Origin: Clostridia bacterium
GTDB lineage: Bacteria > Bacillota > Sulfobacillia > SLMV01
NCBI GenBank assembly: GCA_003566675.1
Contig: PXCI01000110.1
Span: forward strand, 1-39,170
DNA length: 39,170 nucleotides
Reading direction: 5' to 3'
Position numbers and translations under genes: made by a program. Shown in pieces: positions 5,374 through 13,064 of this stretch. The stretch's first letter is position 1. Each line of letters begins with the position of its first letter. Below the pieces are notes generated by a model. That model saw nothing but the letters and a program-made list of their open reading frames with translations, searched no databases and was not told the DNA's origin.

Positions 5374-6663
5374 ATGAAAGCGAAAGAGTTGCTGGAAGGC
5401 AGAAGAAGATTGCGGGAGTTCGTCAGGCCGTTGTTACCGCTATTCGGGCGCTCTGAGCGACGTCATTGGGCCGCCGTGTATCTACACGGACTGCTTCTGG
5501 AAGGAGGAGGACGCAAGACAGCTGCTGGTATTGCGCGGCAGTTGGAAGGTGATGAACAGGCCCTTCAGCAGTTTCTCAGTCAGAGTCCGTGGGATTGGGA
5601 GGCGGTGCGGCGACAGTTGGCGCTGCAGATGATGAGTTTTGTGCCAGCCGGTGGCGGTTGGGTAGTGGATGACACCGGTTTCCCGAAGAAAGGGGAGCAC
5701 TCGGTGGGGGTTGCCCGGCAGTACTCGGGGACGTTGGGCAAGGTCGGTAACTGCCAGACCGGAGTCAGTCTGAACTACGCCACCGAGGATGCATGTTTCC
5801 CTCTGGATTTTCAGTTGTACTTGCCGGAGAAATGGGCGCAAGATGCTGAGCGTTGCAATCGGGCGGGTATACCCCGGGGTCGAAAGTTTCAGACCAAATG
5901 GCAGCTGGCAGTTGAGATGATCGAGAGGGCGCTTGGGTGGGGTGTCAATCCGGGTCCGGTGATAGCGGATTCGGGATATGGCGTAGCGACCAAGTTCCGG
6001 CAGGCCCTGCGCTCGCTGAATCTGACGTATGTGGTGGGTATAGGAGCAGAGACGGGATTCTGGTTGCAAGAGATCAAACCTGATATACCCAGGCACAGTG
6101 GCAGAGGCAGACCGTGTACCCGGGATCACGATCTGCCGGATCCACAGAGTGCGGTGGCAATAGCCCGTCGATTACCCGAGGATGCCTGGAGGGAAGTAAC
6201 GTGGCGGCAGGGTAGCAAGGGACCCCTGAGAAGCCGATTTGCCGCCGTCAGAGCTCAGCCATCGCATGGCCATGCCCATGGCAAGGTCACAGAGCCGATG
6301 GGTTGGTTGCTGATCCAGTGGCCCGAGGATGAGGAAGCACCGACAAAATTTTGGGTATCCAACCTGGATGAGACCATGACACTGCGACAGCTGATCTACT
6401 GGGGCAAACTGCGATGGTGGGGGGAGCAGAACTATCAGCAGCTGAAGGATCAGCTGGGTTTGGATCACTTCGAGGGACGCTCATGGACCGGATGGCATCA
6501 TCACGTAACCATGACCATGATGGCATTCGACTTCCTCACTCTCGAAACCCTGCGGGCAAAAAAGAACTTCTGGGTGGACTCTCCCCACAGTACAGCGCGA
6601 GATCGTGATGGAGATCCTGCTACTACAGCTCGGCTTCTGCCCGATGTGCTGCAGGAGAATTGA
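5374..6663 (+). CDS. IS701-family DDE transposase
   Basis: A 429-residue transposase with the DDE (RNase H-like) catalytic fold, expected to cut and rejoin the ends of the surrounding element. Acidic residues visible in family positions are Asp99/Asp100 in V-V-D-D-T-G-F-P-K-K-G, Asp199 in V-I-A-D-S-G-Y-G, and Glu351 in W-W-G-E-Q-N-Y followed by K-x-x-L-G-L-D-H-F-E-G-R-S, the typical IS701 C-terminal signature. The N-terminal 90 residues contain the R-x-x-x-x-Y-L-x-G-L-L segment common to the family. Length is normal (about 400-440). The frame is intact, so the element may still be mobile. The start is ATG 5374, with only a weak ribosome binding site (the GGTA just upstream), as usual for transposases kept at low expression. 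Confidence 0.93.
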   Translation: MKAKELLEGRRRLREFVRPLLPLFGRSERRHWAAVYLHGLLLEGGGRKTAAGIARQLEGDEQALQQFLSQSPWDWEAVRRQLALQMMSFVPAGGGWVVDDTGFPKKGEHSVGVARQYSGTLGKVGNCQTGVSLNYATEDACFPLDFQLYLPEKWAQDAERCNRAGIPRGRKFQTKWQLAVEMIERALGWGVNPGPVIADSGYGVATKFRQALRSLNLTYVVGIGAETGFWLQEIKPDIPRHSGRGRPCTRDHDLPDPQSAVAIARRLPEDAWREVTWRQGSKGPLRSRFAAVRAQPSHGHAHGKVTEPMGWLLIQWPEDEEAPTKFWVSNLDETMTLRQLIYWGKLRWWGEQNYQQLKDQLGLDHFEGRSWTGWHHHVTMTMMAFDFLTLETLRAKKNFWVDSPHSTARDRDGDPATTARLLPDVLQEN

Positions 6664-6920: not shown

Positions 6921-8180
6921 ATGGAGGAGAAGGGTAAGATCGATGTGGAGGATTTTCTGAATGATCTTGGGGAGTATGTGAACCCCGGTAGGGCGCGGGT
7001 GTACCGCCTGATGGGTATGACGAATGTGGAGCATAAAGGTTTCGGTTCAACCGTGGTGGATATCGAGGGCAAGGAATTCATCGACCTTTGTGCCGGCTAC
7101 GCTGTCATTAACGCAGGGCACAGGCATCCACGGATCCTGGGTGCCGTTCAGCAGCAGATGGAGCACATGGGGCTGTCGACCAAGACCATGCTGTCCGCAG
7201 GCGAGGTGGAATTGGCCCGGGCCCTGGCGGAGATCACGCCCGGGGACCTGAAGCGTTCTTTTTTCTGTGCCACCGGGGCTGAGGCCGTGGAGGTGGCCCT
7301 GAAAGTCGCCCGAATGTACACGGGTCGGACAAACTTTGTGGCCGCCGACAATGGCTTTCACGGCAAGACCCTGGGCGCCCTCTCTGCCACGGGTGGGGGG
7401 AGTTACCGCGACGCTTTCGAACCCCTGATTCCGGGCTTCACCCACGTACCCTTTGACGACATCGAGGCCATGGAGGAAGCGGTGGATGAGCAGACGGCCG
7501 CGGTGATTCTGGAGCCCATCCAGGGAGAAGCCGGTGTGGTCATTCCCCATCCAGACTACCTACCCCGGGTGCGCGAGATCTGTGACCGGGCGGGAGCCCT
7601 GTTGATCCTGGACGAGGTGCAGACCGGCATAGGTCGGACGGGGGAAAACTTCGCCTGCGAGCATTACGGCGTCACTCCCGATATCATGACCCTGGCCAAG
7701 GCACTGAGCGGCGGGATGATTCCGGTCGGGGCTGCTGTGGCTCGTTCCGAGGTCCTTGAGGTCTTCGACGCTAATCCGTGGATCCATTCCAGCACCACGG
7801 GCGGCAATGCCCTGGCCTGTGCTGCGGCAACGGCCGCGCTGCAGGTTTTGCAGGAGGAGGATCTGGCGGGACAGGCCCAGCGCAAGGGCGTAAGGGTCTT
7901 GGAACGCCTGGAGGAGATGGCCCGGAGATACCCTGAGGTCATCCAGGAGGTGTCGGGCAAAGGACTGCTCGCAGGAGTCCGTTTCACCAAGCCCGCAGGA
8001 GGGCTGATGATCATGGCGGAACTGTACAGCAGGGGAGTCCTGGTGATTCCCAGCCTGATGAACTGGACCGTGATGCGGATTGCACCGCCGTTGAACATTG
8101 AGGAGGAACGACTTGAGAGGGGCCTCGACATTGTGGAGGAGGCCGTGGAGTATATCAGACCAGACATAGAGGACATGTGA
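6921..8180 (+). CDS. Class III PLP-dependent aminotransferase (putrescine/acetylornithine-like)
   Basis: A 419-residue fold-type I aminotransferase of class III. Pyridoxal-phosphate features are visible in order: ATGAEAVE (117-124, phosphate binding), F-H-G-K-T (146-150), EPIQGEAGV (198-206), ILDEVQTGIGRTG (229-241, with Asp231 contacting the ring nitrogen) and the Schiff-base lysine Lys260 in T-L-A-K-A-L-S-G-G. It transfers an amino group from an omega-amine or amino acid such as putrescine, ornithine, acetylornithine or 4-aminobutyrate to 2-oxoglutarate. The overall pattern resembles putrescine aminotransferase, but the substrate cannot be fixed from sequence. The start ATG 6921 follows GGATGTGAGAG. 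An SRPBCC gene follows 16 nt later, so they likely share a transcript. No arginine-biosynthesis genes are nearby, which argues mildly against ArgD. Confidence 0.88.
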   Translation: MEEKGKIDVEDFLNDLGEYVNPGRARVYRLMGMTNVEHKGFGSTVVDIEGKEFIDLCAGYAVINAGHRHPRILGAVQQQMEHMGLSTKTMLSAGEVELARALAEITPGDLKRSFFCATGAEAVEVALKVARMYTGRTNFVAADNGFHGKTLGALSATGGGSYRDAFEPLIPGFTHVPFDDIEAMEEAVDEQTAAVILEPIQGEAGVVIPHPDYLPRVREICDRAGALLILDEVQTGIGRTGENFACEHYGVTPDIMTLAKALSGGMIPVGAAVARSEVLEVFDANPWIHSSTTGGNALACAAATAALQVLQEEDLAGQAQRKGVRVLERLEEMARRYPEVIQEVSGKGLLAGVRFTKPAGGLMIMAELYSRGVLVIPSLMNWTVMRIAPPLNIEEERLERGLDIVEEAVEYIRPDIEDM

Positions 8181-8196
8181 GGGCGAGGTGATTTGT

Positions 8197-8649
8197 GTGC
8201 CGAAGGTTGACACGGAAATTTTTGTGGATGCACCTGTAGACGCCTGCTGGGAAATTGGCGCCGACATGGAGCGGTATCCGGAATTCTTCCCCTCTGTCGA
8301 TGAAGTTAAGATTACCGAACGGGGCGAGAACTGGACGGTGACGGAGTGGTCCGGGAAGCTCCAAGGGCGTCGGCTGAAGTGGGTTGAACGTGACGAGTTT
8401 GATGAGGAGCGCGGTACCATTACGTATGACCAGATCAGTGGAGACCTCAAGGTCTTTCGCGGGCAATGGTCCTTCGAGGAGGAGGAAGAGGGCTGCCGGG
8501 TCCGGCTGACGATCGAGGCCAGTCTCGGGATCCCCATGCTGGAGGCGGCCCTGAACCCCCTGCTCAGGAAGGTGATTCGCGACAACGGCAACAGCATGTT
8601 AAAGGGACTCAAGGAGGAGGCCGAGAGGAACAGGACGGCCGATGCATAA
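8197..8649 (+). CDS. SRPBCC / START-like domain protein
   Basis: A 150-residue single-domain protein with the helix-grip (SRPBCC, polyketide cyclase / Coq10-like) fold. Seen are the opening strand with V-D-A-P-V-D-A-C-W-E-I, the D-M-E-R-Y-P-E-F-F-P-S-V loop, the central beta strands ending in W-S-F-E-E-E, and a long amphipathic C-terminal helix (residues about 118-145). Such proteins bind hydrophobic ligands in a central cavity; no catalytic residue is predictable. The start is GTG 8197, 8 nt after GGGCGAGG; the GTG at 8188 would sit inside that ribosome binding site. It follows the aminotransferase by 16 nt and is probably co-expressed with it, although the family gives no obvious metabolic link. 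Confidence 0.75.
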   Translation: MPKVDTEIFVDAPVDACWEIGADMERYPEFFPSVDEVKITERGENWTVTEWSGKLQGRRLKWVERDEFDEERGTITYDQISGDLKVFRGQWSFEEEEEGCRVRLTIEASLGIPMLEAALNPLLRKVIRDNGNSMLKGLKEEAERNRTADA

Positions 8650-8936: not shown

Positions 8937-10013
8937 ATGAACCAAAGACATATTCTATGGGTGTTGCGTCCCCTCCGGGGCGGCATGAAAACCCATGTTC
9001 GTCAGCTGTTGGGCAATCTCGAATCCGTGGAGGTAGAGGTCACGGTCGCGGCACCGGTTGGGCCGGAGTATGTTCTGGGGCGACAGCAACCGGCCGCGCT
9101 GGGGCCGTGGGTGACCCTGCCGGAGGGTTATGCGCGATCTCCTTTTGGGTTTATGCGTGCCCTGCGCGTGCTGCGGCGCACCTTGCGGAATCATCCTCCC
9201 GATGGGTGCCACGCCCACGGCCTGGCCGCTGCCCTGCTGTGTTGTGCCTCGGTCCGTGCCCTCTCACCGGTTCCTCCCGTGGCCTTCACCGCCCACAATC
9301 GGTTTGCCGGCGGCCCGCGGCTGCTCGGGGTCCTGAAATACCTGTCGCGGGACGTCGACCTGCACATCTGTGCCGTGTCGGACGCCGTTCGTCGCAGCCT
9401 CGAGGGCGTCGGAGCCTCCATGCGGGTCATACCCAATGGTTGGCCTGCCCCGGTCGAACCGAGGAGCCGCGGGGGGAACCCCTGCAGGCTGCTGTACGTG
9501 GGACGCCTGGTGCGCGACAAGGGCCTTGACCTGCTGGTGGCAGCCCTGGACAGCATTTCGTCGATGTCCTGGACCCTGCAGGTGGTGGGTGATGGCCCCA
9601 TGCAGACCCGGGTCCAGAGGGCCGTGCACCGGAGGGGCTGGGCGAACCGGGTGTCCTTCGCGGGGTGGACCGACGACGTCCTTCCCTATTACCAGGAGGC
9701 GGACCTGCTGGTGCTGCCGTCTCGCACCGAGGGTGCTGGCCTGGTGATCAGCGAGGCCATGAGCTGCGGGATCCCGGTCCTCGCGTCGGAGGTCGGTGGA
9801 ATTCCCGAGATGCTGGACCACAGGAGGACCGGCTGGCTGGTACCGCCGGGGGATCCCGGGTCCCTGGCGGAGGGACTGGCCATCTTGATCAATGATGGGC
9901 CGCTGCGTGAGGTCCTGGGGGCCTGTGCCCACCAGGAAGCCGCAGCGAAACCCCGGTGGGGGGACATGGCGCGGAAAGTTGAGGGGATGTACCGGGAGAT
10001 GATCAAGGATTGA
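8937..10013 (+). CDS. Glycosyltransferase, GT4 family
   Basis: A 358-residue GT-B-fold retaining glycosyltransferase that would transfer a sugar from a nucleotide-sugar donor to an acceptor at the cytoplasmic face of the membrane. The N-terminal half starts with I-L-W-V-L-R-P-L-R-G-G-M-K-T-H (acceptor-side glycine loop) and contains the C-H-A-H-G segment at about 91-95. The C-terminal half has YVGRLVRDKG (187-196), VVGDGP (216-221) and the E-x7-E motif Glu265...Glu273, followed by G-I-P-V-L-A-S. No transmembrane segment is seen. The start is uncertain: ATG 8937 matches where the family begins, but its ribosome binding site is weak. ATG 8919 and TTG 8862 are in frame. Its TGA overlaps the TTG start of the next gene, which implies translational coupling and a shared pathway with that membrane protein. 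Confidence 0.88.
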   Translation: MNQRHILWVLRPLRGGMKTHVRQLLGNLESVEVEVTVAAPVGPEYVLGRQQPAALGPWVTLPEGYARSPFGFMRALRVLRRTLRNHPPDGCHAHGLAAALLCCASVRALSPVPPVAFTAHNRFAGGPRLLGVLKYLSRDVDLHICAVSDAVRRSLEGVGASMRVIPNGWPAPVEPRSRGGNPCRLLYVGRLVRDKGLDLLVAALDSISSMSWTLQVVGDGPMQTRVQRAVHRRGWANRVSFAGWTDDVLPYYQEADLLVLPSRTEGAGLVISEAMSCGIPVLASEVGGIPEMLDHRRTGWLVPPGDPGSLAEGLAILINDGPLREVLGACAHQEAAAKPRWGDMARKVEGMYREMIKD

Positions 10014-12244
10014 GTTGGGGGGAATCGATACTGCATACAACAAGAGGACGCAACCTGGTACTGGTCTTTATCCTGGCGGTTCTTGTGGCCATCGTCAGCG
10101 TGAGGGCCTACATATCGTGGGGTCCCCTTGCCGCAACGACGGAGCTGAGCCATCCTCAGGGCGACCTGGATCGGGCCGTCCTGGTACTGGCTCCGGGCCT
10201 GGCCGCGCTTGCCCTATCTGAAAGACTCCCCGAGGAGCCGATGGGCAGCTGGGGCGCGGCCCTGGTCAATGTTCGGACCGGGGGTGGGGGATATCCCTTC
10301 GATGCTGCGGCCACCGTGTCAGCAGGGGCCAGGGCCTTCGGATTGAACGATCTCATCCTGGCCGGGTCGGGTGACTCGATCTGGACCGGGGAGGCTGCGG
10401 ACATCTATTCTTCCTGGTACGGGAGGGACATCCCCCCCGGAGGTGCTGCCGTACTGGACTATCCCCGGCTCATCGCTGCCCAGAACCGGTTGACTCACCG
10501 TGTCAGGGTTGGTTTTCTCGGCGACGCCTTTCGCGATGGGGGAAGGGCTACGGCTTTTTTGCAGGGAATGTCCTCCGGGAGCGGTATTCTCGTCGCGGCT
10601 GACCGGGAAGGGATCGTGGACCACTACGCCCGGTGCGTGGCCACCTCCGTCGTCACGCCCGGGGGTTGGCGGACTGACTGGGAACAGCTGGCCGAGGCCT
10701 ACGACCAACTGCCGCCCGGGGTCGGTCTGGTGGTGGTTGAAACTGCGGAGATGGAAATGCTCGCTGAATGGCTGCCCGATGATGTTCGCTATTCCGAGAC
10801 TGCCGTGTTTGCTGGGGAGCTGGGGTCCTTTGTGGATCGGATGGGCGAGGACGCCCTGGTGCTGCTCCTCGATCCCCTGCCGGGTGAGGGAGGAATGGGG
10901 TTGATGATGACCCCAGGATCACCCGGTCGCCTTCTCGGCAGTCCCACGACGCGCCGACCCGGGATTGTGTCGCTCCAGGATGTGGGAAGCACGCTGTTGG
11001 CTGCTGTGGGCCTGGGTGTGGAGGAAGGTTTCGGTCGGCCCGTGGGCGTGACGGCCCCGGGGGACACCGCGACCCTGGCGTATCTGGTCCGCCTTGATTG
11101 GGCCATGAAGGAGGCCGGGGCCCTGAGGGCGCCGTTGGCCCAGGCGATGGCCGCGGGGGTTGTGTTGGCATCCATGGTGGTCATCGCTTCCCTTTTGCAG
11201 TTCCCCCGGCTCTATTCCGCGGCCGCTACCAGCCTGGGGGCCCTATCCCTGTTGCCCCTGGCCGCTTTCCTGGCGCCGGGCCTCGCCAGAATCCTGCCCC
11301 AACTCGCTGCCCTGCTGGTTTTCTGGTCGGTCCTGGTGGTGATTGCCCGTTCCCTCACCGTCGCGGTCGGTTTCAGGCGATCGGTTCAGATCCTTGCTGC
11401 GGCCGGCCTGAGCCTGATCCTGGTGGATCAGATCGGAGGAGGGCGCTGGGCTCTGCTTTCACCCCTGGGGTACTCCGCGGCAGCGGGTGCGCGGTATTAC
11501 GGCCTGGGCAACGAGTTCCTGGGGGTGACCCTGGGGGCAGCGGTCCTGGTGTGGGCCTTCGGCCTGGGGGCGGACCAGGACCGAGATGATGGGCCCTGGC
11601 CGTCGATGCGCTGGGGAGATGTCATGCGTGGGGGCTTGCTCCTGGCCGCTACGGTCATCGCAGCGAGCCCTGAATGGGGATCCAATTTCGGGGCTACCAT
11701 GGTGTTTATGTTGTGGCTGAGCGGGGCCGCTGCCCACCGTCTTCTGCCCATGCAGGACCTGGCATTTTGCCGGAACCCGCGGTTGGCCTGGCGGTTGGCC
11801 GGTGCCGCCTGCGTCCTTTTCGCCCTCGGTCTCGCCGGGGTCCTCCTGTGGCACGGAGGCTCAGCCCCGGTGAGCTCGACCCACGTTGGTCGGCTCCTGG
11901 CTGGGGGCACCGGGGAGGCCCTGTGGCAAGTGGTGGCCAGGAAACTCTTCACGGGCATCCGGCTCTTCCGCTACACGGTCTGGACGAGGATCTGGCTGTT
12001 CATCCTGGCCGTCTACGCGCTGGTCTCGTTCCGGCCCTTCGGGGCAATGAAGAAAATCTTCCGCGGTTCCCCGTCCCTGGCCACCGTGAGCCAGCTGGCT
12101 GTTGCCCTCAGCGTGGCGGCACTGCTTACCAACGATTCGGGGGTGGTCACCGCTGCTCTGACGGTCATGGCGCCCATTGCGGTGACGCTGTTGGCCCTGG
12201 AGGAGGAAGTTGTTGGGCAAAGGACGAAAAGTGATGAAGAGTAA
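10010..12244 (+). CDS. Polytopic membrane protein with alkaline-phosphatase-like outer domain, function unknown
   Basis: A 744-residue protein. Residues about 17-37 form a membrane anchor. Residues about 50-365 form an extracytoplasmic domain with traces of the alkaline-phosphatase/sulfatase fold: VLVLAPGL at 57-64, NVRTGG at 87-92, the A-A-T-V-S-A-G-A-R-A segment near 99-108, and T-T-R-R-P-G-I-V followed by D-V-G-S-T-L-L-A near 313-331. About ten membrane segments follow (roughly 376-740). Conserved-looking motifs in the membrane part are Y-Y-G-L-G-N-E-F (496-503), G-S-N-F-G (557-561) and N-D-S-G-V-V (708-713). I recall similar motifs from unassigned clostridial proteins, but no function. 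The usual metal-binding Asp/His residues and Ser/Thr nucleophile are not evident, so the outer domain may be inactive. TTG 10010 overlaps the glycosyltransferase stop by 4 nt. A role in making or exporting a surface glycan is inferred from context only. Confidence 0.75.
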   Translation: MSWGESILHTTRGRNLVLVFILAVLVAIVSVRAYISWGPLAATTELSHPQGDLDRAVLVLAPGLAALALSERLPEEPMGSWGAALVNVRTGGGGYPFDAAATVSAGARAFGLNDLILAGSGDSIWTGEAADIYSSWYGRDIPPGGAAVLDYPRLIAAQNRLTHRVRVGFLGDAFRDGGRATAFLQGMSSGSGILVAADREGIVDHYARCVATSVVTPGGWRTDWEQLAEAYDQLPPGVGLVVVETAEMEMLAEWLPDDVRYSETAVFAGELGSFVDRMGEDALVLLLDPLPGEGGMGLMMTPGSPGRLLGSPTTRRPGIVSLQDVGSTLLAAVGLGVEEGFGRPVGVTAPGDTATLAYLVRLDWAMKEAGALRAPLAQAMAAGVVLASMVVIASLLQFPRLYSAAATSLGALSLLPLAAFLAPGLARILPQLAALLVFWSVLVVIARSLTVAVGFRRSVQILAAAGLSLILVDQIGGGRWALLSPLGYSAAAGARYYGLGNEFLGVTLGAAVLVWAFGLGADQDRDDGPWPSMRWGDVMRGGLLLAATVIAASPEWGSNFGATMVFMLWLSGAAAHRLLPMQDLAFCRNPRLAWRLAGAACVLFALGLAGVLLWHGGSAPVSSTHVGRLLAGGTGEALWQVVARKLFTGIRLFRYTVWTRIWLFILAVYALVSFRPFGAMKKIFRGSPSLATVSQLAVALSVAALLTNDSGVVTAALTVMAPIAVTLLALEEEVVGQRTKSDEE

Positions 12245-12266
12245 CTCAAGTGGGGGGAGATATCAG

Positions 12267-13064
12267 ATGAAACAGTTTATCAGATTCATGTTCGAGGGCG
12301 AAGCCGCCTACGGTCAGATCACACCCGAGGGGGTGTATCGGCTGGAGGGCAGTCCCTTTGGGCCCTATGGCCCTGGGGAGCTGGCCGGAGATCTGGACGA
12401 CCTGGATCTCTGTATCCCATTGATGCCCGGCAAGATCATCGGGGGGGGCCTGAATTACCGGGACCACGCGGCGGAATCCGGAAGTGAGGTTCCTGAGGAG
12501 CCGATCATATTCATGAAGCCGACCACCACTCTCATCGGTCCGGACGAGGAAATCGTGCTTCCTCCCGACGTTGGCCGCGTCGACTACGAAGGGGAACTGG
12601 CGATCGTCATCGGCAAGACCGCCTTTCGCCCAGATCCGGCCGAGGCCCGGCGGGCCATTTTTGGCTACACCTGTGCCAACGACGTCAGTGCCCGGGTTTT
12701 GCAGCGCAAAGACGGGCAGTGGGTCCGGGCCAAGGGCTTTGACACGTTCTGCCCCCTGGGTCCCATTGTCAACTACGACGTGGACCTTGGATCGCGCCGG
12801 ATTATCACCCGGCTAAATGGGGAGGTCCGGCAGGATTCAACCCTGGATCAGCATGTCTTCGATCCTGATTTCCTGGTGTGGTTCATCAGCCAGGTGATGA
12901 CCCTGCATCCCGGGGATGTCATCATCACGGGAACCCCGAGCGGTGTCGGGCCCCTTCAGCCTGGCGACGTCGTGGACGTGGAGATCGAGGGGTTTGGGAC
13001 CCTGCGCAACCCCGTCGTGGGCACCTGCGAAGGGGTTGGGTGCAGCGATACCGCGGGTGCGTGA
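12267..13064 (+). CDS. Fumarylacetoacetate hydrolase (FAH) family protein
   Basis: A 265-residue member of the FAH superfamily, whose enzymes use a divalent metal to hydrolyse or decarboxylate beta-diketo acids (for example 5-oxopent-3-ene-tricarboxylate decarboxylase, acylpyruvate hydrolase, oxaloacetate decarboxylase). Typical elements are I-I-G-G-G-L-N-Y-R-D-H-A-A-E near residues 57-70, P-I-I-F-M-K-P-T-T-T, the metal ligands in V-D-Y-E-G-E-L-A (two Glu), and Asp in Y-T-C-A-N-D-V-S-A-R, then K-G-F-D-T-F-C-P-L-G-P and I-I-T-G-T-P-S-G-V-G. Substrate cannot be assigned. ATG 12267 follows GGGGGGAGA with good spacing; it begins 22 nt after the membrane-protein gene, so read-through from that operon is possible, but a pathway link is not obvious. 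Confidence 0.9.
   Translation: MKQFIRFMFEGEAAYGQITPEGVYRLEGSPFGPYGPGELAGDLDDLDLCIPLMPGKIIGGGLNYRDHAAESGSEVPEEPIIFMKPTTTLIGPDEEIVLPPDVGRVDYEGELAIVIGKTAFRPDPAEARRAIFGYTCANDVSARVLQRKDGQWVRAKGFDTFCPLGPIVNYDVDLGSRRIITRLNGEVRQDSTLDQHVFDPDFLVWFISQVMTLHPGDVIITGTPSGVGPLQPGDVVDVEIEGFGTLRNPVVGTCEGVGCSDTAGA

Follow-up and report, generated by a model that had tools for sequence, protein, structure and literature searches.

A conserved GT4 glycosyltransferase and membrane protein pair in Bacillota, with a possible role in building an envelope glycoconjugate

Envelope proteins with a domain of the alkaline phosphatase superfamily come in several arrangements. The phosphotransferases LtaS, GacH and BcsG each hold an extracytoplasmic domain of this fold on a membrane anchor, and the envelope protein PbgA/YejM has a metal-free, alkaline-phosphatase-like domain outside the membrane. 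In eukaryotes, the GPI-ethanolamine-phosphate transferases PIG-N, PIG-O and PIG-G have an active metal site and place a lumenal alkaline-phosphatase-like domain at the N-terminus, ahead of a many-helix half; the GPI pathway also employs a GT4 glycosyltransferase, PIG-A. Other systems that invite comparison are the polytopic families WaaL, Wzy, SEDS, GT-C and MurJ/Wzx, which act on lipid-linked glycans, the GT4 enzymes BshA, PglA and PimA, some of which use lipid acceptors, and DUF5693 (PF18949), a large unnamed membrane protein encoded beside a GT4 enzyme in loci with a CsaB-type pyruvyltransferase.

The window analyzed here, the whole 39,170-nucleotide stretch of contig PXCI01000110.1 from a Clostridia bacterium, encodes a gene pair that resembles each of these systems in part, a glycosyltransferase (GT) and a large membrane protein (MP):

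8937..10013, + strand: GT4 glycosyltransferase, 358 aa, ATG start, stop TGA at 10011-10013, Pfam Glyco_trans_1_4
9729..9755, + strand: EX7E catalytic motif of GT (E265-E273), both Glu invariant in 33 MP-linked GTs
10010..12244, + strand: MP, membrane protein of 744 aa, TTG start, 4-nt overlap with the GT stop

A preliminary description had read these genes as a GT4 enzyme overlapping a 744-residue partner by 4 nt, and the start and stop coordinates and open reading frames agree: the overlap is the TTGA at 10010-10013, and the MP frame runs for 744 residues with no internal stop. MP is present in a single copy in its own genome. The GT4 assignment is equally secure, as Pfam matches GT to Glyco_trans_1_4 (E=4e-39) and Glycos_transf_1 (E=1.7e-37), and the protein combines Glycos_transf_1 / Glyco_transf_4 domains with an intact EX7E pair that is invariant across the 33 relatives. 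GT is therefore of the same family as BshA, PglA and PimA, but falls below the curated NCBIfam equivalog cut-offs of the GT4 subfamilies compared (BshA, MshA, EpsE, TIGR03088 and others), its best score being 104 bits where the cut-off is 409. The solved structures nearest to the GT profile include 2jjm (3.6e-60), 5d00 BshA (5e-54), 8dvz (6.6e-50) and 4n9w PimA (8e-44).

There does not appear to be any described family for MP. Neither the Pfam nor the NCBIfam library gave a credible family for the window protein, and the Pfam profiles for O-antigen ligase, Wzy, SEDS, GT-C and MurJ-Wzx matched none of 65 MP relatives, which sets MP apart from those polytopic families. Weak hits to YijD, DUF1422 and PsbN (E 0.0007-0.08) reflect a hydrophobic stretch alone and recur in no other member. 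DUF5693 occupies a comparable position beside a cousin GT4, but it was ruled out by its sequences and by profile comparison (hhalign prob 0.5 and 0.2), and no DUF5693 profile match occurs in the genome that encodes MP. That genome has a GT4-CsaB fusion of 751 aa at a separate place (L157:3932-6184, + strand). A parallel layout, with the cousin GT4 directly before DUF5693 and CsaB, was seen in three loci (L170:3887-8139, L171 and L172). Anti-phage defense profiles in PADLOC gave no match, searches of viral structures, PHROGs and PADLOC returned nothing relevant to the pair, and a search of the open-access literature found no paper on it. Membership of MP in a characterized transporter or synthase family, which would have told against the preliminary description, thus found no support; its view that the pair has no assigned role stands, with MP outside the Pfam and NCBIfam families and its membrane half without a fold match in the PDB.

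The architecture of MP was examined with an AlphaFold2 model built from the 65 relatives (pLDDT 85, pTM 0.87 at full length). The following features of the membrane portion are used below:

10040..10117, + strand: N-terminal membrane anchor, residues 11-36, a helix in the model, N-terminus inside; GT is fused N-terminally in relatives
11099..12241, + strand: membrane half of 11 helices in the AF2 model, residues 364-744
11426..11524, + strand: outer loop L4 motif, residues 473-505 (D473...GARYYGLGNE...G505), with columns invariant in 65 relatives
11669..11695, + strand: outer loop L6 motif PEWGSNFGA, residues 554-562, with P554, G557 and G561 invariant and N559 at 89%
11882..11983, + strand: outer segment L8, residues 625-658 (H625, R644-K645, W658), from alignment columns
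12131..12142, + strand: outer loop L10 motif NDSG, residues 708-711, with N708, D709 and G711 invariant in 65 relatives

Modeled alone, the membrane half reached pLDDT 86.9 and pTM 0.88, and a comparison with the PDB up to April 2026 found no fold match (best E=0.35, probability 0.16). TM-scores were at most about 0.27 among the matches listed, none of which has a WaaL, Wzy, SEDS, GT-C or MurJ/Wzx fold, and profile comparison found no internal repeat in this half. The model and the charge distribution give an N-terminal anchor plus 11 helices, close to the roughly ten helices first proposed. The topology of MP is supported by prediction: loops L2, L6 and L10 are poor in K/R and alternate with the K/R-rich loops L1, L5, L7 and L9, so that L1, L3, L5, L7 and L9 are predicted to lie inside and L2, L4, L6, L8 and L10 outside. 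L8 is long and rather basic, and its placement outside rests on alternation with the neighboring loops. The fused form, with GT at the N-terminus, requires the same topology as the loop charges give.

By this alternation nearly all of the invariant residues would lie outside. Within L4 the invariant positions are D473, G493, R495, Y497, G498, G500, N501, E502 and G505, and within L8 they are H625, R644 and K645, with W658 at 97%. The motifs picked out in the preliminary description, Y-G-L-G-N-E and the N-D-S-G of N-D-S-G-V-V, prove real and have the consensus Y-G-[ILM]-G-N-E and N-D-[SAT]-G; Y497, G498, G500, N501, E502, N708, D709 and G711 are identical in 65/65 relatives, including the four residues it had singled out as functional (Asn501, Glu502, Asn708 and Asp709), all on the predicted outer side. 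Because the relatives are only 18-27% identical to the window MP, such identity is far beyond chance. Judged from the predicted topology, D473, R495, Y497, N501, E502, H625, R644, K645, N708 and D709 would cluster at the outer side. Such a membrane half, modeled with confidence, unmatched among solved structures and with some ten invariant polar residues on the predicted outer side, points to a type of enzyme yet to be described.

The reading we favor, tentatively and at somewhat less than an even chance, is that GT and MP form a dedicated envelope-glycoconjugate module in which MP is an outer-face glycosyl- or glycan-transferase or ligase. GT would act in the cytosol as a retaining enzyme, moving a sugar from a nucleotide-sugar donor to a membrane-embedded acceptor, which may be a polyprenyl-phosphate intermediate or another lipid. 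MP, whose N-terminus is predicted inside and whose phosphatase-like domain lies outside, ahead of 11 more helices, would receive the GT product and process it at the outer face, with transfer or ligation the most probable reaction. It would do so through an outer-face site made up of the ten polar residues just listed, and the outer domain may bind or position the substrate. Such a pair would probably build a sugar-containing part of the cell surface. The earlier proposal allowed MP to move, ligate or trim the GT product, and it may do any of these; where the polar residues lie, and the fact that they do not vary, argues for a reaction at the outer side over mere passage. Transferase, flippase and sensor are indistinguishable by sequence.

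That MP is mainly a transporter, flipping a GT-made glycolipid outward for the phosphatase-like domain to receive, is possible but doubtful. The 11 helices plus anchor and the pairing with GT would suit such a role, as would the handling of lipid-linked phosphates by the same outer-domain fold in LtaS and GacH. That said, the invariant charged residues crowd the outer face of the predicted topology rather than a central cavity, and neither Pfam nor the PDB matches listed reveal kinship in sequence or fold to solved transporters.

The outer domain raises questions of its own:

10172..11053, + strand: extracytoplasmic alkaline-phosphatase-superfamily-like domain, residues 55-348, from Foldseek and column frequencies, with no conserved His

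Its fold is clear. Foldseek placed LtaS 4uor first among PDB matches (E=4.2e-4), followed by a sulfatase, iPGM and phosphopentomutase, with prob 1.00 for LtaS, iPGM, sulfatase and PPM; GacH, BcsG and a glycerol-phosphate-bound LtaS are among the best fold matches. The relatives also give weak profile matches to SGSH_C (30/65, best E=5.7e-5), Sulfatase (9) and Metalloenzyme (5). The outer domain was at first called degenerate, and fold and profile matches alike uphold the description. No His is conserved among the 65 relatives, position 90 is Thr in only 65%, and the alignment columns hold no active alkaline-phosphatase site, with its Asp/His metal ligands and Ser/Thr nucleophile. At 185-190 the relatives retain a GN-D-R set, and at 247/250 a D-R pair; the window MP lacks G185, N186, D188, R190, D247 and R250, which are kept in 95-98% of them. 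Since no His is conserved despite the fold, the outer domain is probably not a phosphatase, and it more likely binds or positions a substrate than cuts phosphate. The missing His and the residues lost from the window MP together place the constrained site in the membrane half.

A degenerate domain of this kind recalls PbgA/YejM, which differs from MP in helix number and order; MP, moreover, is tied to a GT4. By this analogy MP could sense or regulate the state of the envelope, with only a secondary link to GT, and MPs without an adjacent GT do adjoin genes of general housekeeping, for example ireB, alaS, tsaD and parAB. We consider this unlikely, as GT is fused to MP in some relatives and belongs to an MP-specific group, and the invariant site in the membrane half has the look of a catalytic rather than a signaling one.

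It is likewise improbable that MP works as LtaS and EptA do, its outer domain moving a phospho-group onto the GT glycolipid and its membrane half serving only as scaffold. The presence of glycerol-phosphate-bound LtaS, GacH and BcsG among the best fold matches speaks for this, but no His is conserved in the 65 relatives, the window lineage has lost further polar residues, and the supposed scaffold is where the invariant residues lie; the missing metal site thus counts against a phosphotransferase. Moreover, the domain order is reversed relative to the LtaS/EptA type, the domain of MP preceding 11 helices of unmatched fold. That order, with a GT4 in the same pathway, is shared with PIG-N, PIG-O and PIG-G, to which no sequence match of MP was found here.

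Whether GT and MP belong together was assessed across relatives, with genes called by a simple script and trees built as quick searches. Among 109 MPs in fetched loci, 42 have a GT just upstream, 11 have one downstream (including L093 and L081:3419, which are distant or partial), 2 are fused to it and 54 have none adjacent. In a 250-genome sample, at least 69 of 137 strong GT matches lie within 1.2 kb of a same-strand MP, upstream in 62 cases and downstream in 7. The two fusions (L042, 1092 aa; L044, 1055 aa) come from two genera of one family and one clade of the MP tree. A third candidate, the 1096-aa MP of L035, was rejected, as GT there is in another frame and the MP frame is merely open upstream. 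Mapped on the MP tree, the paired or unpaired state has to change 15 times, which implies repeated loss or gain of pairing.

On the GT tree, all 38 MP-adjacent GTs fall in one group of 48 (SH-aLRT 81, below the tool's 95 mark), and the GTs of CsaB/DUF5693 loci lie outside it. Every one of the 48 comes from an MP-encoding genome or an MP locus, though 10 are not MP-adjacent. Co-occurrence of GT and MP in the 250-genome sample, from 2x2 counts read by hand, has an odds ratio of 12.7 (Fisher p=3e-16, without correction for kinship). Four genomes with an orphan MP (G304, G309, G310 and G311) carry a second MP that adjoins GT, and a fifth (G313) has GT elsewhere. The Alkaliphilus and Geosporobacter genomes tested yielded no close GT, and this clade seems to be without an MP-type GT. 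As about half of MPs have no adjacent GT, and these genomes no close one, MP can work without GT. GT4 and MP are thus a dedicated and conserved pair, but not an obligatory one.

The two-protein machine first envisaged therefore survives in part: the pair is dedicated, occurs in two gene orders and is fused in two genera, but pairing is not obligatory, and in eight families GT is preceded by an aminotransferase, as a rule together with a START-like protein. The objection that MP might usually occur without a glycosyltransferase is half borne out by adjacency and not by genome content. Mere conservation of gene order, with the two proteins acting separately, is very improbable: MP does lie in a slowly changing region where an unrelated AdoMet decarboxylase is also kept in 36 loci, but the pair shows two gene orders and fusion, the GT tree has a group confined to MP genomes, and where the two genes are apart GT is still encoded in the MP genome.

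Three neighbors deserve mention:

6921..8180, + strand: class-III PLP aminotransferase, first gene of the block (Aminotran_3 1.9e-110)
8188..8649, + strand: START-like (SRPBCC, Polyketide_cyc/RatA-like) protein, second gene of the block (Polyketide_cyc 2.5e-23)
12210..13064, + strand: fumarylacetoacetate-hydrolase-family gene directly 3' of MP (FAA_hydrolase 1e-66), start probably at 12231 or 12264

The aminotransferase precedes GT in the window and in 10 further loci (eight families by code), namely L028, L029, L031 and its duplicate L109, L035, L037, L045, L142, L144 and L150, and the START-like gene usually sits between the two, with homologues holding the same place. The block is interrupted by other genes in L031/L109 and is without the START-like gene in L150; MP is out of view in L142 and L150 because both end at a contig edge. 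Identity with the window proteins in the compared loci is 42-54% for the aminotransferases and 40-56% for the START-like proteins, and in the lineages that have it the block may indicate binding of a lipid-like molecule and a step involving an amino group. A transposase-like ORF (DDE type by eye) lies just upstream of it, at 5374-6663. No polymerase, flippase or teichoic-acid gene was recognized near the GT-MP pair.

Downstream, the fumarylacetoacetate-hydrolase cluster (c8) recurs in 13 loci around MP, and its link to MP is uncertain. The AdoMet decarboxylase kept near MP is confirmed by Pfam. In L061-L078, MP-GT often precedes this gene and then UbiA/UbiD/UbiE- and futalosine-menaquinone-like genes, judged from the start of the sequences only. 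The decarboxylase and the menaquinone-like genes were rejected as MP partners; they look like stable neighbors in many Clostridia, since they are absent around the window MP and in other clades.

MP itself is widespread. Relatives were found in 28/61 close genomes and in 182/250 evenly drawn genomes of the phylum, about 157 of them strong once some 25 weak matches, counted by hand, are set aside. Named carriers include Desulfotomaculum-like bacteria, Thermoanaerobacter, Brevibacillus, Alkaliphilus and some bins of Actinomycetota and Armatimonadota. Queried with the window sequence alone, the genome collection gave no match, as the patterns of that sequence are window-specific; an alignment query gave more than 500 relatives, with 527 stretches encoding one. 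The class to which the window belongs falls within Bacillota, since loci of its members are identical to loci of named Bacillota (L033 = L060, L030 = L064 and L031 = L109). In Clostridioides difficile, a copy annotated as 'hypothetical protein' sits 3' of a PIN/TRAM gene. Unusual arrangements were also seen, MP being fused in tandem (1488 aa), tandem-duplicated or flanking GT on both sides (L168:3989-8452, - strand; L169:3986-8369, + strand; L081), and in Thermoanaerobacter wiegelii the GT-adjacent MP is broken by stops and the orphan copy is intact (L167:3878-6147, + strand). In Thermoanaerobacterium saccharolyticum strain NTOU1 it is GT that looks frameshifted.

MP is thus strongly present in roughly 60% of the sampled genomes of the phylum, yet is unnamed in the family libraries searched. 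A bolder proposal, which we hold loosely and well short of evens, is that its membrane half has an undescribed fold and belongs to a new glycan-transferase class that acts at the outer face, is common across Bacillota and is served by its own GT4. It would make an envelope glycoconjugate not known before, for which the aminotransferase and START-like protein may prepare a lipid or sugar in some lineages. The dedicated GT offers a way in to the substrate of MP.
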